Assembly: GCA_030608765.1 (NCBI GenBank)
Contig: JAUWDN010000054.1
Location: 1-7,007 of the forward strand
Reading direction: 5' to 3'
DNA length: 7,007 bases
DNA from: Promethearchaeota archaeon
GTDB lineage: Archaea > Asgardarchaeota > Lokiarchaeia > Sigynarchaeales > SOKP01
Both the position numbers and the translations under genes were made by a program. Shown here piece after piece: positions 1 through 7,007 of the stretch. Below the pieces are notes generated by a model. It searched no databases, was not told the DNA's origin, and saw nothing but the letters and a program-made list of their open reading frames with translations. Position 1 is the first letter of the stretch. Each line of letters opens with the position of its first letter.

Positions 1-156
1 ATAATATTTGTATTTTATTTCATCGTCAACATATTTGTGGCGTTAAGTTTGATTTTTGTCTATTTCTACCCATTAGAAGGAGAGAAATTAGAACGACTTG
101 AAGAAGAACTCAAAGAACTTCATCAAAAAAAGAGAGAACTACTAAATACAATTTAA
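1..156 (+). CDS. C-terminal end of a membrane transporter, probably GPH/MFS type (partial)
   Basis: The gene enters from the left edge in frame 1 and ends at TAA 154-156, leaving 51 residues. The first 24 or so (IIFVFYFIVNIFVALSLIFV onwards) form one hydrophobic transmembrane helix. A Tyr-Pro-Leu then leads into a charged helix (EGEKLERLEEELKELHQKKR) that would be cytoplasmic and coiled-coil prone. A last helix followed by YPL-x(1-2)-EK and a Glu/Leu/Arg-rich tail is a recurrent ending of GPH (MelB-like) sugar/cation symporters and other MFS carriers, so that is the preferred reading. The tail alone cannot prove the family or give a substrate. It sits 24 nt upstream of the geranylgeranyl reductase on the same strand, so the two may be cotranscribed. 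Confidence 0.55.
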   Translation: MIFVFYFIVNIFVALSLIFVYFYPLEGEKLERLEEELKELHQKKRELLNTI

Positions 157-168
157 AAAACAAGTTTT

Positions 169-173
169 GAGGG
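169..173 (+). promoter_or_regulatory. Shine-Dalgarno-like GAGGG before the GTG start of the reductase
   Basis: GAGGG lies 7 nt upstream of the GTG at 181, in the short spacer after the transporter stop. It is the best ribosome-binding match near any start in this window. It supports GTG 181 as the true start, as does the position of the FAD-binding strand, which begins at residue 3. Having a Shine-Dalgarno here, unlike the promoter-proximal genes, fits an internal gene of an operon. Confidence 0.55.
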
Positions 174-180
174 TTTATTC

Positions 181-1422
181 GTGATATATGACTTAATTAT
201 TATCGGAGGTGGTCCAGGTGGGGCAACGGCTGCAAAGATTGCTGCAGAAAGTAATGCAAATGTGCTTTTACTTGAAGCTGAGGAAGAAGGTAGATATAAA
301 TGTTGTGCCGGAGGAATTCCTGCTAGAAGCGAAGAGTTCTCACCAATACCCCACGGAGTTGGTGATCGTGAAGTTACCGGCGGAGTTTTATTTACTCCAA
401 AAAAAGGACCTATGGAATTCGAAGCTTCTGGAAAAGATAATAAGGGTTATTGCATGTTTCGAACCGACTTCGATAAGTATCTCTTGGACCTTTCCCAAGA
501 CGCTGGTGCCCAAGTAATTTATAAATCTCGAGTAAAAAGAATTGAGATTGGCAAAAATAAGAACATCAAGATAATAGGGACAAAAGAATTTCAAAGCAAA
601 TGTGTGATCCTCGCAACCGGATTGGGGGGAGCCCAATTACAAAGAACTCTAGGTATAGAGGTTCCGCCAATGGTAAGTGGAATACAAGCGGAAATTAGCG
701 TCCCCGAATCTGTCATAGACGACCAATTTGGTAATCGAGTATGGGAATTCTTCGATCGTAGTTTAATTGATCACGGGATTGGGTGGGTGTTTCCTAAAAG
801 TCAAACGCTAAGCATTGGAGTTTTAGGGAAGGGAGTTAAGATGACTCATTTTAACGCTTTTCTCAAGAGTCCGTTCATAAAGGATAAAATCGAAGGAAGA
901 GAGATGATAGTTTTTGGGGGTCGAAAAGTTTGGGCAGCTCCTATACCTGATCGATTGATCGCAAAACCTTATTGTGAGCGAGTTATGGTAATTGGAGATG
1001 CTTGTGGAACTGCGGATCCAATTTTATACGAAGGAATTTATCAAGCACGCTTATCTGGTAAAATTGCGGCAGAAGTTTTCTGTCAAGCGCTTGAAAAAGA
1101 GGATTTTAGAGAACCTGAACTTGCAAGATACAACGACCTCCTACTAAAACATCTCCACGAAGAAGGTTTGAGGTATTCCTATAAATTTCATCACCTTTTG
1201 TATCATAGTGGTCTCTTGGAACGAGTCCTCGAAGCGACCTATTCAATGGCTCAAGAGGATCCAGAAATGATGCAATCAACTATCGCATTATTTACAGGGA
1301 CCGAAACTAGGAAACATAGCTGGGAAGTTATGATGTCTCGTAAATGGAAATTAGTAAAATTTTTGGGTATTAAGAATAGCCTGAAACTTTTCCCAACTCT
1401 GGTTCATGCGCTCCGTATCTAA
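181..1422 (+). CDS. geranylgeranyl reductase family FAD-dependent oxidoreductase
   Basis: This is a flavoprotein of the geranylgeranyl reductase (GGR) family, which in archaea hydrogenates the isoprenoid chains of membrane lipids (digeranylgeranylglycerophospholipid reductase) and elsewhere reduces other prenyl groups. Visible marks are the dinucleotide-binding strand-turn-helix with GGGPGG at residues 9-14 and an acidic end of strand 2 (LLLEAEEEG, 29-37). There is also a Cys-rich KCCAGG at 40-45, where relatives carry the active-site Cys-Gly-Gly loop. The second FAD motif is IGDACG at 271-276, followed by PILYEGIYQARLSG. GWVFPK at 201-206 matches the conserved Trp-x-Phe-Pro substrate-pocket motif. 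At 413 aa the length is normal and the gene looks intact, ending in tandem stops (TAA TAA). Family assignment is secure. The exact substrate is inferred: the ILYEGI segment departs from the usual PLTGEGI-like form, so an archaeal lipid role is likely but a quinone or other prenyl substrate is possible. Confidence 0.87.
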   Translation: MIYDLIIIGGGPGGATAAKIAAESNANVLLLEAEEEGRYKCCAGGIPARSEEFSPIPHGVGDREVTGGVLFTPKKGPMEFEASGKDNKGYCMFRTDFDKYLLDLSQDAGAQVIYKSRVKRIEIGKNKNIKIIGTKEFQSKCVILATGLGGAQLQRTLGIEVPPMVSGIQAEISVPESVIDDQFGNRVWEFFDRSLIDHGIGWVFPKSQTLSIGVLGKGVKMTHFNAFLKSPFIKDKIEGREMIVFGGRKVWAAPIPDRLIAKPYCERVMVIGDACGTADPILYEGIYQARLSGKIAAEVFCQALEKEDFREPELARYNDLLLKHLHEEGLRYSYKFHHLLYHSGLLERVLEATYSMAQEDPEMMQSTIALFTGTETRKHSWEVMMSRKWKLVKFLGIKNSLKLFPTLVHALRI

Positions 1423-1442
1423 TAAGTAAAAGAAAATCGTAT

Positions 1443-1472
1443 TATCTATATTTTAGATATAAAATTTAGATA
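1443..1472. repeat. short dyad TATCTA-N5-TAGATA plus direct repeat of TTTAGATA
   Basis: TATCTA (1443-1448) and TAGATA (1454-1459) form an inverted repeat with a 5-nt centre, and TTTAGATA occurs twice (1452-1459 and 1465-1472), 13 bp apart. The cluster lies just after the reductase stop and about 30 bp before the TATA-like box of the glycosyltransferase gene. That is where an archaeal activator site would lie. The sequence is very AT-rich, so chance occurrence is a real alternative. Confidence 0.25.
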
Positions 1473-1497
1473 CTAATTGGAGAAAGTTATACCTAAA

Positions 1498-1508
1498 TAC
1501 TTAAAAAG
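1498..1508 (+). promoter_or_regulatory. TATA-like box of the glycosyltransferase gene
   Basis: TACTTAAAAAG resembles the archaeal TATA box. With the usual 25-27 nt spacing it would place transcription start near 1528-1532, giving a leader of roughly 17-21 nt before ATG 1549. No convincing Shine-Dalgarno precedes that ATG. The box separates this gene from the upstream transporter/reductase unit. Assignment is by pattern only. Confidence 0.45.
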
Positions 1509-1548
1509 AGTTATTCTTAAGATAGCCTAATATATGAGCTAAAATGAG

Positions 1549-3048
1549 ATGACATTTAAGAAAATTATTGTGGTTATATTTATTATTATAATTTCACTAA
1601 TCCTATTCACAAGTGAACTTATGATTCATTTTATCAATTTTCTTTATATTTATCCATTGGTATATTGGATCACCTATATCTCTGCTATCATTGGTGTTTT
1701 AACCATAATTATTACTTTATTTTGGTATGCAAAGGCGAGAATAAGGTTTTCATCACCAATCAAAAAGAAGACTTTTTCTTCTGTTAAAATAATTCTCACG
1801 ATAATTACAATTTTAGGAATCATTCAGGTAATATTATCTCTATTCGCTCAAGAATTATTATATCAATTAACTTCTATATTATTTATCACATTATCAGCAA
1901 TTTTTGGTTTTAGAACTTTTATTAATTTATCTACTTCACTCTTGTTTCGTTCGAGTATTAAGGAGTTTGGGACTATACCATCAGTTTCAATAATTATACC
2001 TGCCTATAATGAGGGTAAAGTGATTGAAAAAACAATTAGATCAGTTTTAGAACTGCGTTATAGTCAAAAAGAGATTATTGTTGTGGACGATGGCTCAACG
2101 GATAATACTTTAAAAATTTTGAAAATGATGGAAACTGATAATCCAATTAAGGTCATTTCAAAAAGAAAGAATGGGGGAAAGTGGTGTGCACTAAATGAAG
2201 GGATAGAATCAGCTATATCAGATATAATGGTATGTATAGATGCTGATACAGTATTGGATAAGAACGCAATACAGCCATTAGTAAATCATTTCATTGATAG
2301 TAAAGTTGGAGCAGTAGCAGGGAATATAAAAGTTGGAAATCGAGATAATATACTTACAAAATTACAAGCTTTGGAATATATTTCTCAATTGAATATTCAA
2401 AGAAGAAGTGAAGCATTTTTTCGAAAAATAACAGTAGTTCCAGGCCCTTTAGGAGCTTTTAGAAAATCTATAATTAAAGAAGTGGGTTTCTATACTGGAG
2501 ATACATTTGCAGAAGATGCAGACTTAACTTTAAAAATATTAAGAGCAGGATATAGAATAGAATATGAACCTAAATCAATTGGATATACAGAAGCTCCAAC
2601 ATTTCTTTTTGATTTAGCTAAACAAAGGTATCGTTGGTATAGAGGATTACTACAAGTAATAATTAAACATAAAGGCATGTTTTTTAATCCAAAATATGGA
2701 ACTACAGGATTGTTTATGATTCCTTGGATATCTTTGAATGGATTAATCTTTTCTTGGTTTAACTTTTTCGCAAGTGTATGGATTTTTATACTTATATTTA
2801 ATCCATTTTCTGGATTTCTTATATATGTACAAATTTATTTTTTCTGGTTTTCTTTCTTTCTGATAATGGAAGTAGTTATGAGTATGTATGCGGTATTTGT
2901 GGATGTAAGGGAAAAACCAAAAATTTTGTTTTATATAATTGCTTATAAATTATTCTACGGATACATGACTAACACAATCAGAGTTTTAAGTCAATTAGAG
3001 CAATATTTAAAATATCCTATGAAATGGGAGACTATTAGAAGAACTTGA
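1549..3048 (+). CDS. membrane-embedded family 2 glycosyltransferase (cellulose/hyaluronan/poly-GlcNAc synthase type)
   Basis: A 499-aa integral membrane GT2 enzyme, expected to transfer sugar from a nucleotide-sugar at the inner membrane face and possibly to extrude the growing polysaccharide. N-terminal hydrophobic helices occupy about 4-22, 33-60, 79-99 and 104-125. The catalytic GT-A domain starts at SVSIIIPAYNEG (145-156). It contains VVDDGSTDN (178-186), the metal-binding DAD (231-233), the general-base segment AEDAD (321-325) and the QRYRW form of the QxxRW motif (359-363). That last motif marks processive synthases such as BcsA, HasA and PgaC. Hydrophobic helices follow at about 385-416, 420-450 and 458-478. 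ATG 1549 begins a basic-hydrophobic N-terminus that suits a first membrane helix. Base composition is odd: spot counts give G+C of 14/60 at 2521-2580 and 14/60 at 2821-2880, against 30/60 and 24/60 in two lines of the reductase. Part of this reflects Ile/Phe/Lys-rich membrane coding, but recent acquisition is possible. The polymer cannot be told from sequence alone. Confidence 0.87.
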   Translation: MTFKKIIVVIFIIIISLILFTSELMIHFINFLYIYPLVYWITYISAIIGVLTIIITLFWYAKARIRFSSPIKKKTFSSVKIILTIITILGIIQVILSLFAQELLYQLTSILFITLSAIFGFRTFINLSTSLLFRSSIKEFGTIPSVSIIIPAYNEGKVIEKTIRSVLELRYSQKEIIVVDDGSTDNTLKILKMMETDNPIKVISKRKNGGKWCALNEGIESAISDIMVCIDADTVLDKNAIQPLVNHFIDSKVGAVAGNIKVGNRDNILTKLQALEYISQLNIQRRSEAFFRKITVVPGPLGAFRKSIIKEVGFYTGDTFAEDADLTLKILRAGYRIEYEPKSIGYTEAPTFLFDLAKQRYRWYRGLLQVIIKHKGMFFNPKYGTTGLFMIPWISLNGLIFSWFNFFASVWIFILIFNPFSGFLIYVQIYFFWFSFFLIMEVVMSMYAVFVDVREKPKILFYIIAYKLFYGYMTNTIRVLSQLEQYLKYPMKWETIRRT

Positions 3049-3072
3049 TAATTGTAATTTGAAAATGGTAAT

Positions 3073-3093
3073 AATTGTTTTTTTACAACAATT
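3073..3093 (+). terminator. hairpin with T7 run after the glycosyltransferase gene
   Basis: AATTGTT (3073-3079) and AACAATT (3087-3093) form a 7-bp AT-rich stem around TTTTTAC. A run of seven T (3078-3084) spans stem and loop, and the T-rich GTTTATATTATTT follows. The right arm is itself part of a perfect palindrome, AACAATTGTT (3087-3096). It lies 25 nt after the glycosyltransferase stop, between convergent genes. Archaeal termination depends mainly on U-rich tracts, so the T7 is probably the working part. Confidence 0.45.
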
Positions 3094-3154
3094 GTTTATA
3101 TTATTTGCTCAGTAATTTCTGTATATAATTTCTCTTCTTGATTTTAAATAAAAT

Positions 3155-4096
3155 CTATCTGATTTTTTTGTACATGGGATAGAAAATAGGTGAAATATAA
3201 GCTCCACTTGTTTTAGAATAAAATTTAATATTCTTTTCATCTACCCACATGATTTCACATGTTTTTAATCCATTTTGTTTGATATCCCATAAACACCATA
3301 AGAAGAGTTCAGTCCCAATTCCCTTTCCCCGTAACGACTCCAAAACTCCCGTTGGTCCAAATGAACCAGGAAAAAACAAACCATGAGTAGACCAACCAAC
3401 TATTTCATTTTTCGCGTTCTTTGCTATGAAAGTTGTTGGAGGATTAAGCTTAAACGAAATTAGGACTTCTTCAGCCCATGTACCAAGTGGAAATTGATGT
3501 TTCACAAAGTTATAAGTTTCGTCGAAATCATTAGGTTGAACGCGTTCATATTCATATCCTTCTTTTTTCGCCGCAGGTTCTTTTTTAATGATGTCCAAAG
3601 AAACTGTGAGGTTGAATATAGTCTCACGGGATTTAAATCCATGTTTTTTTAAAAAGAAATAGAGGCTTGTATCGCGTACATCGACACCGGGTTGCCAATA
3701 TTCAGGAATACTAGGACCATAAATTACTTTAGTTATTTCTTTCTCCTTAGTTCGCCTTAAGAATTCATAAAACATCTTAGAACCAAGTCCTTGTCGTCTG
3801 TATTGCTTATCGACTACACATCCCTTAAAGAAATATTGGTCTTTATTTAATATGTTCCTACGCACTACTATAAATGCTGCTATTGGTTTATCTATCTCTA
3901 AATTATATAAAATTAGGGATAAATCTTGTTCAAAACCGATGTCTTCTAGCGTACCTCTACGAAAATAATCAAAAGGAAGCGAAAAAAAGCGAGAATTATC
4001 TTCAAATAACTGATGTATGCTTTGGATATTTTCTGAAGACAACTGCTTATAATCCATTTTCTCTGTATTTAGCTTAATTTTCTTATTATTTTTCAA
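3155..4096 (-). CDS. tandem GNAT-fold N-acetyltransferase (two GNAT domains)
   Basis: This 313-aa protein carries two GNAT modules, each with the acetyl-CoA pyrophosphate loop. The first domain (about 14-165) has VVDKQYRRQGLG, with RRQGLG at 100-105. The second (about 181-313) has GPTGVLESLRGKGIG, with RGKGIG at 256-261. The pieces YWQPGVD (133-139) and FYSKTSGA (292-299) recur in paired-GNAT proteins known from bacteria, where they are mostly unassigned. An acyl-CoA-dependent N-acyltransferase is secure, but the acceptor (amino sugar, small amine or peptide) is not. Start choice: TTG at 4096 lies two bases after the stop of the HAD gene with GGAG upstream, which favours coupled initiation. 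ATG at 4057 (MDYKQLSSENI, residue 14) is the alternative and would still keep the whole first domain. It forms an operon with the HAD gene and is convergent with the glycosyltransferase gene. Confidence 0.82.
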   Translation of the reverse strand: MKNNKKIKLNTEKMDYKQLSSENIQSIHQLFEDNSRFFSLPFDYFRRGTLEDIGFEQDLSLILYNLEIDKPIAAFIVVRRNILNKDQYFFKGCVVDKQYRRQGLGSKMFYEFLRRTKEKEITKVIYGPSIPEYWQPGVDVRDTSLYFFLKKHGFKSRETIFNLTVSLDIIKKEPAAKKEGYEYERVQPNDFDETYNFVKHQFPLGTWAEEVLISFKLNPPTTFIAKNAKNEIVGWSTHGLFFPGSFGPTGVLESLRGKGIGTELFLWCLWDIKQNGLKTCEIMWVDEKNIKFYSKTSGAYISPIFYPMYKKIR

Positions 4097-4098
4097 TT

Positions 4099-4794
4099 TT
4101 ACAGAAGCTCCAGTAATTTTTCTAACTTTCCCCTATAAGTTGGTTCGGGAGTTTTGGCGCTCAAATTTGTGTTTGAACTGTTTACTAAGAAGGTCTGCGA
4201 ACCTAAATTGACACATACCATATCCTTATCTTCGTCCCCTACCATCATACATTCTTTAGCAGAGAGATTGAGATATTTAAAAATCAATTGATAGTAAAGG
4301 AGATTCGGTTTTGTAGCACATGAGTTTTCAATACTGGTTATGAGATCGTATGGAAAATCACCAATTCCTGCCCATTCAAGACGCTGTTCTATAGCTGTTA
4401 AAGGAAGAACGGGTGTTGTTGCAATTACAACCTTATAATCTTTGTTAAAAGCAGTTTGAATAACTTTCCGTGCTTCCGGTTTCTTTTTTGTAAATTTCTG
4501 TAATTTCTTAAAATCTTCCTCGTAAAATTTATCAAAAAGTGGTCGGATTTCGTCCTTTTCGTAGCCTTCAACAGGAAAAAAAGCTTTTGAAAACGCTTCC
4601 TCATTTGGAATTTTACCATCGTTATTATTTACGAACTCAGACGCTTTCAATATGGCCGGAACCATCTTTTTAGGAGGAACTAAGTGAGCTACACTATTAG
4701 CTAATAATTTTAAATATCCCGGAACGAATTGGTTTAAATCTACATCTATTAAGGTTCCATCTAAATCGAATAAGATTGCTTTAAGTTGTCTCAT
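4099..4794 (-). CDS. HAD-superfamily hydrolase (phosphatase-like)
   Basis: A 231-aa cytosolic HAD hydrolase with all four motifs. Motif I is FDLDGT (D10 nucleophile, D12 acid/base). Motif II is IATTP with T126. Motif III is K162 in ATKPN. Motif IV is VGDEDKD with D187 and D191 for Mg2+. Residues about 18-105 between motifs I and II form a helical C1-type cap, which usually sets specificity for a small phosphorylated metabolite. The segment PLTAIEQRLEWAG (131-143) resembles a HAD subgroup I know mainly from Clostridia-type and related bacteria, with no assigned substrate. I chose ATG 4794 over TTG 4806: it begins right at the beta-strand that carries motif I, and it lies about 26-31 nt from a TATA-like box, as a leaderless or near-leaderless archaeal gene would. 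TTG 4806 adds only four residues and has no better ribosome site. The tandem GNAT gene follows after two bases. Confidence 0.85.
   Translation of the reverse strand: MRQLKAILFDLDGTLIDVDLNQFVPGYLKLLANSVAHLVPPKKMVPAILKASEFVNNNDGKIPNEEAFSKAFFPVEGYEKDEIRPLFDKFYEEDFKKLQKFTKKKPEARKVIQTAFNKDYKVVIATTPVLPLTAIEQRLEWAGIGDFPYDLITSIENSCATKPNLLYYQLIFKYLNLSAKECMMVGDEDKDMVCVNLGSQTFLVNSSNTNLSAKTPEPTYRGKLEKLLELL
4108..4111 (-). promoter_or_regulatory. GGAG inside the end of the HAD gene, before the TTG start of the GNAT gene
   Basis: Read on the minus strand, GGAG lies within the last codons of the HAD gene (CTG GAG CTT CTG TAA) and 11 nt before TTG 4096. The spacing is a little long. Even so, stop, two bases and start in this order suggest that ribosomes finishing the HAD protein reinitiate on the acetyltransferase. 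It is the main argument for the TTG start over ATG 4057. Confidence 0.4.
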
Positions 4795-4818
4795 AATTTT
4801 ACGCAAACTGAAGTTAAT

Positions 4819-4829
4819 GCAATATATTG
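4819..4829 (-). promoter_or_regulatory. TATA-like box of the HAD-GNAT operon
   Basis: GCAATATATTG contains the 10-bp palindrome CAATATATTG, centred about 30 nt before ATG 4794 on the minus strand. Transcription starting about 26 nt downstream would begin within a few bases of that ATG, so the mRNA would have almost no leader, in keeping with the lack of a Shine-Dalgarno. Other AT-rich stretches nearby could serve instead. Confidence 0.35.
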
Positions 4830-4872
4830 TTTCTAAATTATATTAGCAATTATAATTTGTCATTTACCCTTC

Positions 4873-4888
4873 TTTAAACTAGTTTGAA
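4873..4888. repeat. 16-bp near-perfect palindrome in the divergent intergenic region
   Basis: TTTAAACTAGTTTGAA has a perfect 10-bp core, AAACTAGTTT (4876-4885), and pairs on both sides with one T/G mismatch. It sits between the divergent HAD and arrestin-like genes, about 80 bp upstream of the former's start and 105 bp upstream of the latter's. A dimeric regulator site is possible. No regulator gene is present in the window. Confidence 0.35.
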
Positions 4889-4904
4889 ATAAAGTTTTAA
4901 TAAT

Positions 4905-4959
4905 TTGTAGATTACAATTAATAGTAAAAAAAAATATTAATAGAGTTCTACAATTAATA
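4905..4959. repeat. dyad TTGTA-GAT-TACAA overlapping an 11-bp direct repeat
   Basis: TTGTA (4905-4909) and TACAA (4913-4917) form a perfect 5-3-5 inverted repeat. The second arm begins an 11-bp direct repeat, TACAATTAATA, found at 4913-4923 and 4949-4959. A related 10-mer, AATATTAATA, occurs at 4933-4942 and 4956-4965. The downstream copy abuts the presumed promoter of the arrestin-like gene. The layout suits an operator with repeated half-sites, but low sequence complexity lowers confidence. Confidence 0.35.
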
Positions 4960-4975
4960 TTAATAATATTAAAAT
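4956..4975 (+). promoter_or_regulatory. TATA-like AT block before the arrestin-like gene
   Basis: The stretch AATATTAATAATATTAAAAT is centred about 26 nt upstream of ATG 4992. This is the standard distance from an archaeal TATA box to a transcription start, so the message may be leaderless. No purine-rich ribosome site is visible in CAACAATTTCTTGAA just before the ATG. The exact box within this AT block cannot be fixed by eye. Confidence 0.4.
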
Positions 4976-4991
4976 TCAACAATTTCTTGAA

Positions 4992-6200
4992 ATGAGATTA
5001 AAGCTTAGTGATTTAAATAACGGTTCCGTCTACTTAGGTGACAAGCTAAAAGTTAGAACGACATATAATTTTGACGAAGATTCGTCAATCTTATGGTCTG
5101 GGATTCGTCTATTAACTCATCCACCATGTTTAAAAGAACTACAAATCACTAAGGAAGATATTTTCTCTAAGGGCAAATTTGAAAAGGGGGAATACATTCG
5201 AGAAAACTCGTTTTTGATCAAGAACAACGTTATTCCTACCATTAAAAACAGAAATTTGGAATACGAGATAAAATTAATTTTAAGATTACCTCATCCTAAT
5301 GATCCGGATGATGATTTAGTAATTAATAAAACTCAAAAAATTGAAATCAGGGCAAAGGTATCAAATCAACTAGTGACAAAACCTAATCCTCTGTCGCTTT
5401 CAATTTCGGGGTTAAACATTAATGTATCAAAGGATGTATATCGTCCAGGGGAGACGATAAAAATCAACTTTTCTTCTAAAGAGCTCAAACAGGTAGAAAT
5501 CAGACTTTTGCAAAAAGCAAATGTAATTTGTTATTGTGAAGCTTATGGACAAACATGTAGCAAGGTAGAAGAATTACCCCCTGCTATTGCGGGAGATGCT
5601 AAAACTTCCGATATGAATAAAGAATTCCTGCTTTTAAAAGTACCTGAGATTGCTCAACCAAGCCATAACTACTTATGGGAACCCCACGAAAAAGAGTTTT
5701 GGGGAATGAAATACGGTTCTTACGTAAAATGGTCTTTAATGTTTATTGGAAAGCCTAAACCCGAATTTGGAAGAGAACCAATTAAATTCAAAGTCCCGAT
5801 AACGATTTTAGCAAAACCAATTGGGAAAGATGAATTAAGAACTGATCTGTTTTCTAAAGGTACTGCTGAAGCACCTTCTATCTTTGACGGAGTCTCATCA
5901 AGGTTTCAGAAAGTATATAAAATTATTTCAATTGATTCCGATATAGAAAGATATAACATTAAAATAAAGAACATATCTAAAGAGACCTTAGAGGGCGTTT
6001 CAGTTAACATTTCGGGACTTCAAGAAGGTTTATTCGAAACTGCTCCAACCTTAACTGGATTTCATCGTTGGGAAGCCGGCGAGGAAAAGGAAATTGTTTA
6101 TAATAGTAAGCAAAATATTACCGCTTTAATCTGTGTTTTAAAAGATAATTCTCAAAAAACAATCAGGATTCAAACCCCTTTAGCTTCCAACTTCTTCTAA
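4992..6200 (+). CDS. arrestin/Vps26-like protein with an extra C-terminal beta domain
   Basis: I read this 402-aa soluble protein (no signal peptide or membrane helix) as an arrestin-fold scaffold. Residues about 1-118 look like an arrestin N-domain: VYLGDKLKV (13-21) opens it, and FLIKNNVIPTIKNRNLEYEI (74-93) follows the Phe-x-(Leu/Ile)-...-Pro-Thr-...-Tyr-Glu-Ile pattern of the family. It ends in LRLPHPND. Residues about 128-268 look like the C-domain, with VYRPGETIKINF (139-150) matching the recurrent Tyr-x-Pro-Gly-Glu-x-Ile strand. Residues about 298-390 add a third beta-rich domain (YNIKIKNISKETLEGVSVNI, 311-330) that recalls ear-like or CARDB-like sandwiches. Three cysteines cluster at 170, 172 and 179, and C46 lies elsewhere. 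Bacterial Spo0M and eukaryotic Vps26/arrestins share the two-domain fold. The family call rests on motif spacing and needs a profile search. It converges on an MglA-type GTPase gene 18 nt away. A trafficking or scaffold role is inference. Confidence 0.6.
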   Translation: MRLKLSDLNNGSVYLGDKLKVRTTYNFDEDSSILWSGIRLLTHPPCLKELQITKEDIFSKGKFEKGEYIRENSFLIKNNVIPTIKNRNLEYEIKLILRLPHPNDPDDDLVINKTQKIEIRAKVSNQLVTKPNPLSLSISGLNINVSKDVYRPGETIKINFSSKELKQVEIRLLQKANVICYCEAYGQTCSKVEELPPAIAGDAKTSDMNKEFLLLKVPEIAQPSHNYLWEPHEKEFWGMKYGSYVKWSLMFIGKPKPEFGREPIKFKVPITILAKPIGKDELRTDLFSKGTAEAPSIFDGVSSRFQKVYKIISIDSDIERYNIKIKNISKETLEGVSVNISGLQEGLFETAPTLTGFHRWEAGEEKEIVYNSKQNITALICVLKDNSQKTIRIQTPLASNFF

Positions 6201-6201
6201 T

Positions 6202-6221
6202 TAAGATTAGAATTCGTCTTA
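6202..6221. terminator. weak shared dyad between the convergent arrestin-like and GTPase genes
   Basis: TAAGA (6202-6206) and TCTTA (6217-6221) flank a 10-nt centre containing GAATTC. The right arm includes the stop codon of the GTPase gene. With only 18 nt between the two stops, transcripts from both sides must overlap or end within the opposing gene. The 5-bp stem lacks a T-run, so a terminator role is a weak guess. Confidence 0.2.
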
Positions 6222-6812
6222 TTGGAGCGCAGATACTATTTGACTCTTGTATAAATTCTTAAAAACGAGGCTTAAAATTTCCTCAAAGGTGTCTAATATC
6301 CCCTCTCCATTCACAGCTATTGTTTTCTTAAAGTCAATGTTTTTAAATTTAAAATAATTGATGTTTTCTAAGAAAACTGCTGGCGAAAATTTGTCAGGTA
6401 AGTCTTGCTTGTTAAACGCTATAACCTTAGGAAGAGTGATAATAGCATCTTCAAAATAATTGCATAATTCGTTCCAAGAAGTTAAATTTCGGTAATATAC
6501 GTCTTGTTGTGAATCTGCTACAAAGATAATCCCATCGATTGCTTGCAATGTAACAGGCCGCGTAATAATGTAGAAATCCTGCCCAGTCGTAGAGTAGAGG
6601 TGAATCTTTAGATGCCACTGTTGATTTTGAAAACTAATCGTTCCATAATCGAAGAATAGTGTCCTTCTTACGCTACTGTCTATGCTCAAAACGCGATCTT
6701 TCTTCCCAAAATGGTTGAATAACGCTTTTATAGATGTGGTTTTTCCGGATAATGCGGGTCCAAAATAGCAAATTTTCAATTGAATACTTTGAGTTAGTTG
6801 ATCTATTATCAT
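6219..6812 (-). CDS. MglA-family small Ras-like GTPase
   Basis: A 197-aa single-domain GTPase. The P-loop is GPALSGKTT (18-26, with K24 and T25). Switch I holds RRTLFFDYG (49-57). The G3 region is HLYSTTGQDFY (71-81), the G4 motif is NKQD (134-137), and AVNGEG (166-171) is at the place of G5. The RTLFFD signature and a G3 of the form LY-x(3)-GQ-x-FY, with no Asp before the Gly-Gln, are typical of the MglA group. That group sets cell polarity in bacteria, where its GTPase activity is controlled by an MglB/Roadblock partner. VADSQ (98-102) after the IDGIIF strand matches as well. There is no C-terminal prenylation box or membrane helix, so location would depend on partners. No Roadblock gene is in the window. 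The neighbouring convergent gene encodes an arrestin-like protein, a plausible effector or regulator. ATG 6812 gives a natural N-terminus before beta-strand 1. Confidence 0.87.
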   Translation of the reverse strand: MIIDQLTQSIQLKICYFGPALSGKTTSIKALFNHFGKKDRVLSIDSSVRRTLFFDYGTISFQNQQWHLKIHLYSTTGQDFYIITRPVTLQAIDGIIFVADSQQDVYYRNLTSWNELCNYFEDAIITLPKVIAFNKQDLPDKFSPAVFLENINYFKFKNIDFKKTIAVNGEGILDTFEEILSLVFKNLYKSQIVSALQ

Positions 6813-6851
6813 ACTAAAATTACTTTCTTGCTTTTATGTAGATATTAAAAT

Positions 6852-6865
6852 AAGTTTAAAAAAGC
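6852..6865 (-). promoter_or_regulatory. TATA-like box of the GTPase gene
   Basis: On the minus strand this reads TTTTTTAAACTTAT, 40-53 nt upstream of ATG 6812. Transcription from the usual distance would start near 6830 and leave a leader of about 18-20 nt without a clear Shine-Dalgarno. A second AT block (6841-6852) lies closer and would give an almost leaderless message. Which one is used cannot be decided here. Confidence 0.35.
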
Positions 6866-6874
6866 CGATTTTTT

Positions 6875-6900
6875 TAGATGGTTCGCTTAATGACCGTCTA
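6875..6900. other. hairpin-forming inverted repeat upstream of the GTPase gene
   Basis: TAGATGGT (6875-6882) and ACCGTCTA (6893-6900) pair over 8 bp, with one G-T type mismatch, around the 10-nt loop TCGCTTAATG. The stem contains the most GC-rich bases of this intergenic stretch. A looser outer dyad (T-run at 6869-6875 against the A-run at 6908-6914, with AGAT/ATCT inside) could extend it. It lies directly upstream of the GTPase promoter and may be an operator or a transcript-end structure. Confidence 0.4.
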
Positions 6901-6907
6901 TTATCTT

Positions 6908-6925
6908 AAAAAAATTAAAAAGAAA
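6908..6925 (-). terminator. T-rich tract ending a minus-strand gene beyond the right edge
   Basis: Read on the minus strand the tract is TTTCTTTTTAATTTTTTT, three T runs in 18 bases, the usual form of an archaeal terminator. The last bases of the window (about 6980-7007) are purine-rich on the same strand (AAGAAGAGAAG), as coding strands often are here. A minus-strand gene therefore probably ends in the last 75 bases. The frame is undecided: stops at 6932-6934 and 6979-6981 are both possible ends. Confidence 0.35.
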
Positions 6926-7007
6926 TACAACTCAAAAAACTAAATCGTTTCCTTTTATCCTACACTCTAACAACGACCTTAGGATAAGTATCTCAACTTC
7001 TCTTCTT

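Follow-up and report, generated by a model that had tools for sequence, protein, structure and literature searches.

An arrestin-like protein of Asgard archaea encoded with a Rag-type GTPase and sharing a C-terminal domain with an FrhB-like protein

With which GTPase, if any, would an arrestin-like protein of an Asgard archaeon act? The question is raised by a 7,007-nucleotide stretch of a Promethearchaeota archaeon (GenBank assembly GCA_030608765.1, contig JAUWDN010000054.1, positions 1 to 7,007; hereafter the window, meaning the whole stretch analysed), in which a protein of 402 residues, termed here ARR, is encoded beside an MglA-type small GTPase. An initial annotation, made from the letters of the window, had proposed that these two genes may specify a membrane-recruited GTPase/adaptor module relevant to the origin of vesicle trafficking. 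Here, we describe a computational analysis of ARR, its relatives and their gene neighbourhoods in Asgard genomes. We propose, with moderate confidence, that ARR may be the subunit that acts as arrestin-clan-like adaptor or scaffold in an Asgard module, the core of which would comprise a Rag-type GTPase encoded outside the window (c8, about 303 residues), an FrhB-like F420/iron-sulfur (FeS) oxidoreductase, and a member of a third family, YFDE, named after its conserved motif. A single complex or pathway is suggested by a domain that ARR shares with the FrhB-like and YFDE proteins (the 'ear'), by gene order and by co-occurrence across genomes. To judge from the genes linked to it, the module looks tied to redox metabolism rather than to vesicle traffic. 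The features of ARR are as follows.

4992..6200, + strand: ARR, arrestin-like protein, 402 residues (open frame; 428 homologues at E<=1e-3)
4992..5381, + strand: arrestin-N-like domain, residues 1-130, boundary approximate (profile-profile comparison; no Pfam Arrestin_N)
5127..5129, + strand: codon of invariant Cys46 (C in 208/208)
5382..5819, + strand: arrestin-C-like domain, residues 131-276, boundary approximate (Pfam Arrestin_C)
5529..5558, + strand: CxCx6C motif with Cys180, Cys182 and Cys189, together with Cys46 a putative metal or redox site (208/208)
5928..6197, + strand: C-terminal ear, residues ~310/313-402, start approximate (hhalign with YFDE and FrhB-like C-termini)

The position of ARR was compared in two groups of loci, defined by ARR identity and not by taxon: 42 'Loki-type' loci (51-87% identical to the window's ARR) and 'divergent' loci (30-49% identical to Loki-type copies in the 17 loci with a value), some of whose ARR proteins nevertheless carry Lokiarchaeota or Sigynarchaeota labels. 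Twenty regions around distant ARR members were read (L and G numbers denote loci and genomes), 18 of them divergent primary loci and the other two L077, which holds a second ARR copy, and L093, which is of Loki type. ARR comes after c8 on the same strand in all 18 divergent primary loci, and an FrhB-like gene stands just before c8 in 17 of them, L092 being the one without it. Likewise, every one of the 20 genomes with a divergent ARR, a set that leaves out the short ARR pieces of G109, G116, G125, G135, G145 and G149, has c8 directly upstream on the same strand with at most 300 nucleotides between match borders. Since the genes 3' of ARR vary among the divergent loci, the arrangement of c8 and ARR is not a frozen block. 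ARR and c8 are found on one contig in 45 genomes and share a strand in 44; the distance is at most 300 nucleotides in 20 of these and 0.9-20 kb, with c8 upstream on the same strand, in 24. Across 227 genomes of the phylum, ARR was matched in 71, a c8 orthologue in 69 and both in 64; the Fisher p for this co-occurrence, 5e-42, is overstated, since it assumes independent genomes.

The assignment of c8 to the Rag type is based on its domain match, its nearest structures and its motifs. The c8 protein of L074 (L074:7486-8397) matches Pfam Gtr1_RagA at E 2.3e-26 (93.1 bits, cut-off 22), and a c8 profile compared with solved structures finds 8yl2 ('GTP-binding protein') best at 2e-27, with Gtr1 and RagA at E about 1e-20. 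The replacement of NKxD by HKxD is a hallmark of Rag GTPases, and residues H118, K119 and D121 of c8 are invariant in 17 of 17 sequences. The FrhB-like gene is found less than 500 nucleotides upstream of c8 in 33 of 35 loci. Its product (FrhB_FdhB_C, E 4e-40) has the FrhB_FdhB N and C domains and 4Fe-4S matches in common with the FrhB/FpoF F420 proteins, but bears a C-terminal ear and does not reach the FrhB and FpoF cut-offs of NCBIfam. Three proteins were tested for CBS domains, and all proved to have them.

The ear, which had escaped the initial annotation along with four invariant cysteines described below, is common to ARR, the FrhB-like protein and YFDE. By hhalign, the ARR ear aligns with the C-terminus of the YFDE family at 98.5% (E 4e-15) and with that of the FrhB-like proteins at 97.9% (E 7e-13), and the YFDE and FrhB-like C-termini align at 99.6% (E 6e-25). 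The highest value among 20 column shuffles was 3%, and among the other cross-comparisons of cut domains 9.2%. A repeat of the ear comparison gave the same outcome, though not independently, as its second alignment contains ARR rows. Searches of Pfam and PDB with the ear returned nothing significant, and we infer it to be a beta-sandwich. When 20 whole genomes were searched with the ear profile, 16 were positive, 15 of them with exactly three ears and G002 with one, and the four genomes picked for the absence of ARR and c8 had none. By position or by reading of the open reading frames (ORFs), the three ears of a genome belong to the FrhB-like protein beside c8, to ARR and to YFDE; the third ear of G054 and G056, which lack ARR, is on a second YFDE-type protein, and the third ear ORF of G080 and G102 fits YFDE by length only (372 and 376 residues). 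The further ear protein of seven fetched regions is YFDE, matched by its N-terminal profile at E 4e-48 to 1e-59; in one of these regions two copies stand in tandem. Over the 227 genomes, many of them fragmentary and many represented by their best 22 candidates, the matches listed place ears in 96: three in 59, four in 13, five in 1, two in 10 and one in 13. Among the same matches, ears are present in 79 of the 80 genomes with c8 at E<=1e-50. In a tree labelled by best-matching ear profile, all 61 ARR ears group in a single clade (SH-like support 0.86); labels based on BLAST misassign some YFDE proteins as ARR or FrhB. A guess that the N-domain of YFDE is a Longin domain found no support in Pfam and PDB searches; NPR2, looked for in 12 genomes, matched twice, weakly and elsewhere, and a Longin identity is therefore not claimed.

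The initial annotation had credited ARR with two arrestin-type signatures, of which both domains stand by profile-profile comparison, the C-domain having in addition a sub-threshold Pfam match and the N-domain no Pfam Arrestin_N match. Pfam Arrestin_C matches ARR residues 141-276 at E 9.6e-6 and 26.4 bits, below its cut-off of 27.7, and occurs at E<=1 in 23 of 33 Loki-type relatives and 14 of 20 diverse ARR members; Arrestin_N gave no match at E<=1 in the window's ARR or in either of these sets. Arrestin_N (PF00339) exceeds its cut-off in 49 of the 227 genomes, and no listed match falls on an ARR gene. The Asgard proteins that do match it (e.g. L104-L127) are sometimes several per genome, and a few of them also match the Vps26 or Spo0M models. 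An Asgard arrestin profile was taken at such Arrestin_N matches (26 of 32 ORFs, 24 loci), and ARR aligned with it by hhalign at 95.9% (E 5.8e-9), residues 7-183 being co-linear with 24-217 across the N-to-C domain boundary, as in tandem arrestin domains. The single domains scored 68% each against the same profile (N-domain, E 4.8e-5), the ear scored about 1%, and column-shuffle maxima were 0.6% for residues 1-285 and 1.5% for the N-domain (20 shuffles in both cases), and 7.7% for the C-domain. These comparisons support, at profile level, the presence of two arrestin-type domains in ARR. In PDB the matches to the ARR sequence are all non-significant; among them are an arrestin-domain protein and S-arrestins (best E 0.26). 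ARR also gives weak matches to sandwich families other than Arrestin_C.

ARR thus has two arrestin-like domains in the same order as the Asgard arrestin-domain proteins (mostly about 280-320 residues), from which it differs in lying below the Pfam cut-offs and in its ear, its four invariant cysteines and its recurrent gene setting. A comparison with Vps26 and Spo0M, both placed in the arrestin clan in a passage of a published account (PMC2515105), had also been suggested in the initial annotation. Vps26 (PF03643) is matched in 7 and Spo0M (PF07070) in 26 of the 227 genomes, in neither case at an ARR gene (E<=0.01), and membership of ARR in either family was discarded.

The four cysteines are Cys46, Cys180, Cys182 and Cys189, each of which is cysteine in 208 of 208 ARR family proteins longer than 330 residues (window included, 200 distinct, identity down to 22%; two family proteins of 330 residues or less are left out). 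All other alignment columns hold at most 27% cysteine. The four conserved cysteines may hold a metal or an FeS cluster, or may act together as redox-sensitive thiols. A SWIM zinc finger (CxCxnCxH) was rejected, the fourth ligand position being H in only 10 of 208 proteins; Pfam SWIM matched 4 of 20 diverse members, with an E no better than 0.044. One Lokiarchaeota copy of ARR (L003:10001-11293) is longer by about 29 residues, and the profile matches it in two parts whose query ranges overlap.

Several further genes stand beside these subjects. A second, more divergent ARR in G089 (L077:8141-9304) lies among FeS-protein genes and not behind c8. Four tandem proteins of 422-427 residues adjoin ARR in L080:236-5532, with similar ORFs in L081, L083 and L085; in the two tested (L080:4249-5532 and L083:9651-10922), the C-terminal part matches V4R (E 1e-9 and 4e-13), a domain related to TRAPPC3. 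A peptidase C25 protein (L089:12639-15188, E 2e-61) adjoins an FrhB-like gene, and an ear-bearing NfnB-like protein with Fer4_20 and Pyr_redox_2 domains (L097:1308-3041, L098:13458-15191) is encoded in a Rag-type GTPase region.

If ARR belongs to a module with c8, the ear domains would bring ARR, the FrhB-like protein and YFDE onto one complex, to which the FrhB-like protein, with F420 and FeS, would provide a redox or energy-state input. CBS proteins encoded nearby would be possible nucleotide sensors, and the Rag-type GTPase would switch the complex. ARR, in turn, would present or recruit a target via its arrestin-like domains together with a structural zinc or redox-sensitive FeS/thiol site. 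We suggest only tentatively that this is an undescribed metabolic sensor of Asgard archaea, in which FrhB-like, YFDE and four-cysteine ARR proteins are joined by a nearly exclusive ear, wired to redox state and switched by the Rag-type GTPase, with ARR as the output arm. No report of this gene set was found among the records listed in a literature search limited to open-licence PMC papers, without preprints.

A number of observations weigh against assigning ARR to such a module. The co-occurrence of ARR and c8 is confounded by phylogeny, and it has exceptions in both directions: ARR is found without a c8 orthologue match in 7 genomes and c8 without ARR in 5. On the G001 chromosome record ARR and c8 are 80 kb apart on opposite strands, the G002 chromosome record has ARR and one ear and no c8 orthologue, and in the closest relatives of the window c8 lies either 7.8-20 kb from ARR or on a separate contig. 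In eleven genomes (G046-G056) a c8-type gene is matched (E 1e-93 to 1e-115) and the ears number three or four, but ARR is not matched, so that ARR is dispensable to the rest of the set. Six loci without ARR were read, among which L094-L096 have FrhB-like, CBS and YFDE genes beside c8; CBS, YFDE, FrhB-like and c8 genes are likewise together without ARR in G088 (L100). Neither the number nor the exclusivity of ears is strict: among the matches listed, 37 of the 96 ear-positive genomes do not have exactly three and 17 are without c8 at E<=1e-50, and the ear is also carried by the NfnB-like protein in two loci. Finally, the N-domain of YFDE received no family assignment in Pfam or PDB searches, and the C-terminal half of c8 gave no roadblock match by profile, leaving a roadblock domain in c8 unsupported.

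The same cysteines and the same ear can be accommodated by a different arrangement, in which ARR serves an FrhB-type oxidoreductase complex as a structural subunit that carries metal or FeS, and the Rag-type GTPase regulates only expression or location, without binding ARR. We regard this as possible though doubtful. The invariance of all four cysteines, the presence of the ear on the FrhB-like partner and the genes for FeS/flavin proteins that lie near ARR in several loci are all consistent with it. It is at odds with the placement of c8 directly upstream of the divergent ARR in 20 of 20 genomes, and with the arrestin-like nature of two of the three ARR domains, which suggests binding over electron transfer.

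The remaining candidate partner is the small GTPase of the window, named in the initial annotation as the other half of the pair. Its gene and the gap before it are as follows.

6201..6218, no strand: gap between the two convergent stops, 18 nucleotides (ORF ends)
6219..6812, - strand: MglA-type small GTPase, 197 residues (nearest solved structures MglA, E 1.2e-27; alignment; motifs)

An ORF check confirmed the coordinates, with ARR open at 4992-6200 on the + strand and the GTPase at 6219-6812 on the - strand, convergent and 18 nucleotides from stop to stop. Because 428 and 2041 database proteins, respectively, match them at E<=1e-3, neither ORF is a chance frame. A simple scan found no terminator-like site in the gap, and searches for RNA families, tRNA, promoter and terminator found none. 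A 19-residue hydropathy scan reached maxima of 0.6 and 1.4 for the two proteins and showed no transmembrane-like stretch in either.

The MglA hallmarks noted in the initial annotation were borne out, and judged by structure matches and motifs the label 'MglA-type' is right. Among solved structures the window's GTPase finds MglA best, at E 1.2e-27, and Rab, Arf and Ran come far behind, the top non-MglA structure being a yeast Rab at 1.8e-6; it is accordingly closer to MglA than to Rab, Arf or Ras. Among its 120 listed relatives the P-loop and TLFFD are present in 120, RTLFFD, the xGQ motif and FNKQD in 119 each, and a cysteine in the last six residues in none. In Myxococcus and Thermus, whose MglA it resembles in nearest structures and in the RTLFFD motif, an MglB-type roadblock partner is encoded alongside MglA; here, by contrast, a roadblock profile (16 ORFs from 30 loci, three wrong frames later removed to leave 13 Asgard proteins) gave no match at E<=1e-3 in the 34 loci holding the MglA-type ORF. 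The profile found 2 matches in 1008 ORFs, both in L091 (L091:2204-2962 and 3577-4332; E 1e-6 and 1e-7), where an ORF for a Ras-like small GTPase adjoins each of them. MglA has an intrinsic arginine in Switch I, Arg53, predicted to act as an arginine finger, and MglA-like GTPases have already been reported in an Asgard archaeon, both according to sections of PMC10933270; from the alignment with MglA, the R of RTLFFD is taken to be this arginine in the window's GTPase. A conserved protein of about 126 residues, c3 (32 loci, among them L030:5293-5670), for which Pfam gave no significant match, lies directly behind the MglA-type GTPase on the same strand in 19 of 32 loci and is a possible partner of it.

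That the MglA-type GTPase recruits ARR to the membrane or a pole, as a GTPase/adaptor pair, we consider unlikely. The proximity of the two genes is real in Loki-type genomes: they lie within 8 kb in 23 of the 24 Loki-type loci with 8 kb of downstream sequence, and in at least 38 of the 227 genomes (a minimum, from best MglA-type matches) they are convergent on one contig at a distance of at most 5.3 kb, 18 of these within 150 nucleotides. The loss of proximity in related genomes that the initial annotation would have counted against the pair is not what is seen there. This proximity does not extend to the divergent loci, none of 19 having an MglA-type gene near ARR; among the 20 regions around distant members only L093, of Loki type, does. 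Nor is it particular to the GTPase. The recurrent order in the 42 Loki-type loci is a HAD-family gene (-), ARR (+), often a cupin-like gene, c9 (+), the MglA-type GTPase (-), c3 (-) and a NifU-like gene (NifU Pfam E 2e-29); other genes frequently intervene between ARR and the GTPase, the gene immediately downstream of ARR being the GTPase in 15 of 41 loci and c9 in another 15 of 41, and the HAD gene is immediately upstream in 33 of 36. Within 8 kb, unrelated neighbours are similarly kept (HAD 21/21, c3 20/24, NifU-like 17/24); c8 is present in 15 of 21. The two genes are convergent in all pairs found and so are not one transcript, and the same-strand gene behind the GTPase is often c3, as given above. 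The MglA-type GTPase is therefore most likely a syntenic neighbour of ARR in this lineage, possibly recruited later, and was rejected as the main partner, being near ARR only in Loki-type genomes. The initial idea of an arrestin-like adaptor served by a small GTPase survives in changed form, with the better-conserved, co-directional Rag-type gene in place of the MglA-type one; the notion of an exclusive pair does not, and relevance to vesicle trafficking drew no support, the linked genes encoding FrhB-like redox, CBS-domain and FeS/flavin proteins.

Quite improbable, finally, is that the ARR domains are generic Ig-like sandwiches whose arrestin likeness is a fold-level coincidence and whose neighbourhood is ordinary synteny, for although the sub-threshold Arrestin_C match, the missing Arrestin_N match, the weak matches to other sandwich families and the broad Loki-type synteny would all suit it, the two-domain co-linear alignment with Asgard arrestins stands far above the ear and the shuffles, and the linkage to c8 is kept where other neighbours of ARR change.

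Judged by the relatives of ARR, the window itself appears to derive from a Lokiarchaeia genome. The closest genome contigs are Lokiarchaeota/Lokiarchaeia contigs of metagenome-assembled genomes (86-87% identity), all 42 genome-contig loci found with ARR are Lokiarchaeota/Lokiarchaeia records, and the named relatives of ARR are Asgard with the exception of cluster P0033, which is also labelled Candidatus Nanopelagicaceae bacterium. None of five proteins matched a PADLOC anti-phage defence model, and a defence-system reading was dropped. At 1549-3048 of the window a PgaC-like family 2 glycosyltransferase is encoded between a geranylgeranyl-reductase-family gene and a GNAT gene; of 9 related loci in which the reductase gene is seen, L006 is the single one with a close copy of the glycosyltransferase gene at that place.

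The module proposed for ARR recalls the Rag/Gtr, Ragulator and EGO systems in the Gtr1_RagA match of c8, and departs from them in the linkage of c8 to an FrhB-like redox protein and an arrestin-like protein and in the ear that these share. Eukaryotic Rag GTPases report nutrient state to TORC1. Rag-like GTPases of Asgard archaea are described in PMC10933270, and a 2016 review asks, as an open question, if Lokiarchaeal Rag homologues might offer a handle on archaeal nutrient sensing (PMC4917890). The former paper, of 2024, also states that the small GTPase genes of one Lokiarchaeon generally do not share operons with genes for roadblock, longin or TRAPPC3 proteins, and that matching these GTPases to regulators is difficult for that reason (PMC10933270). 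From the gene set described here, concrete candidates can be named as partners of one Rag-type GTPase, namely ARR, the FrhB-like protein and YFDE, which share one domain, and the question thereby becomes testable by pull-down. If the proposal is true, the set would give prokaryotes an equivalent of the Rag nutrient-sensing machinery, here coupled to redox state.

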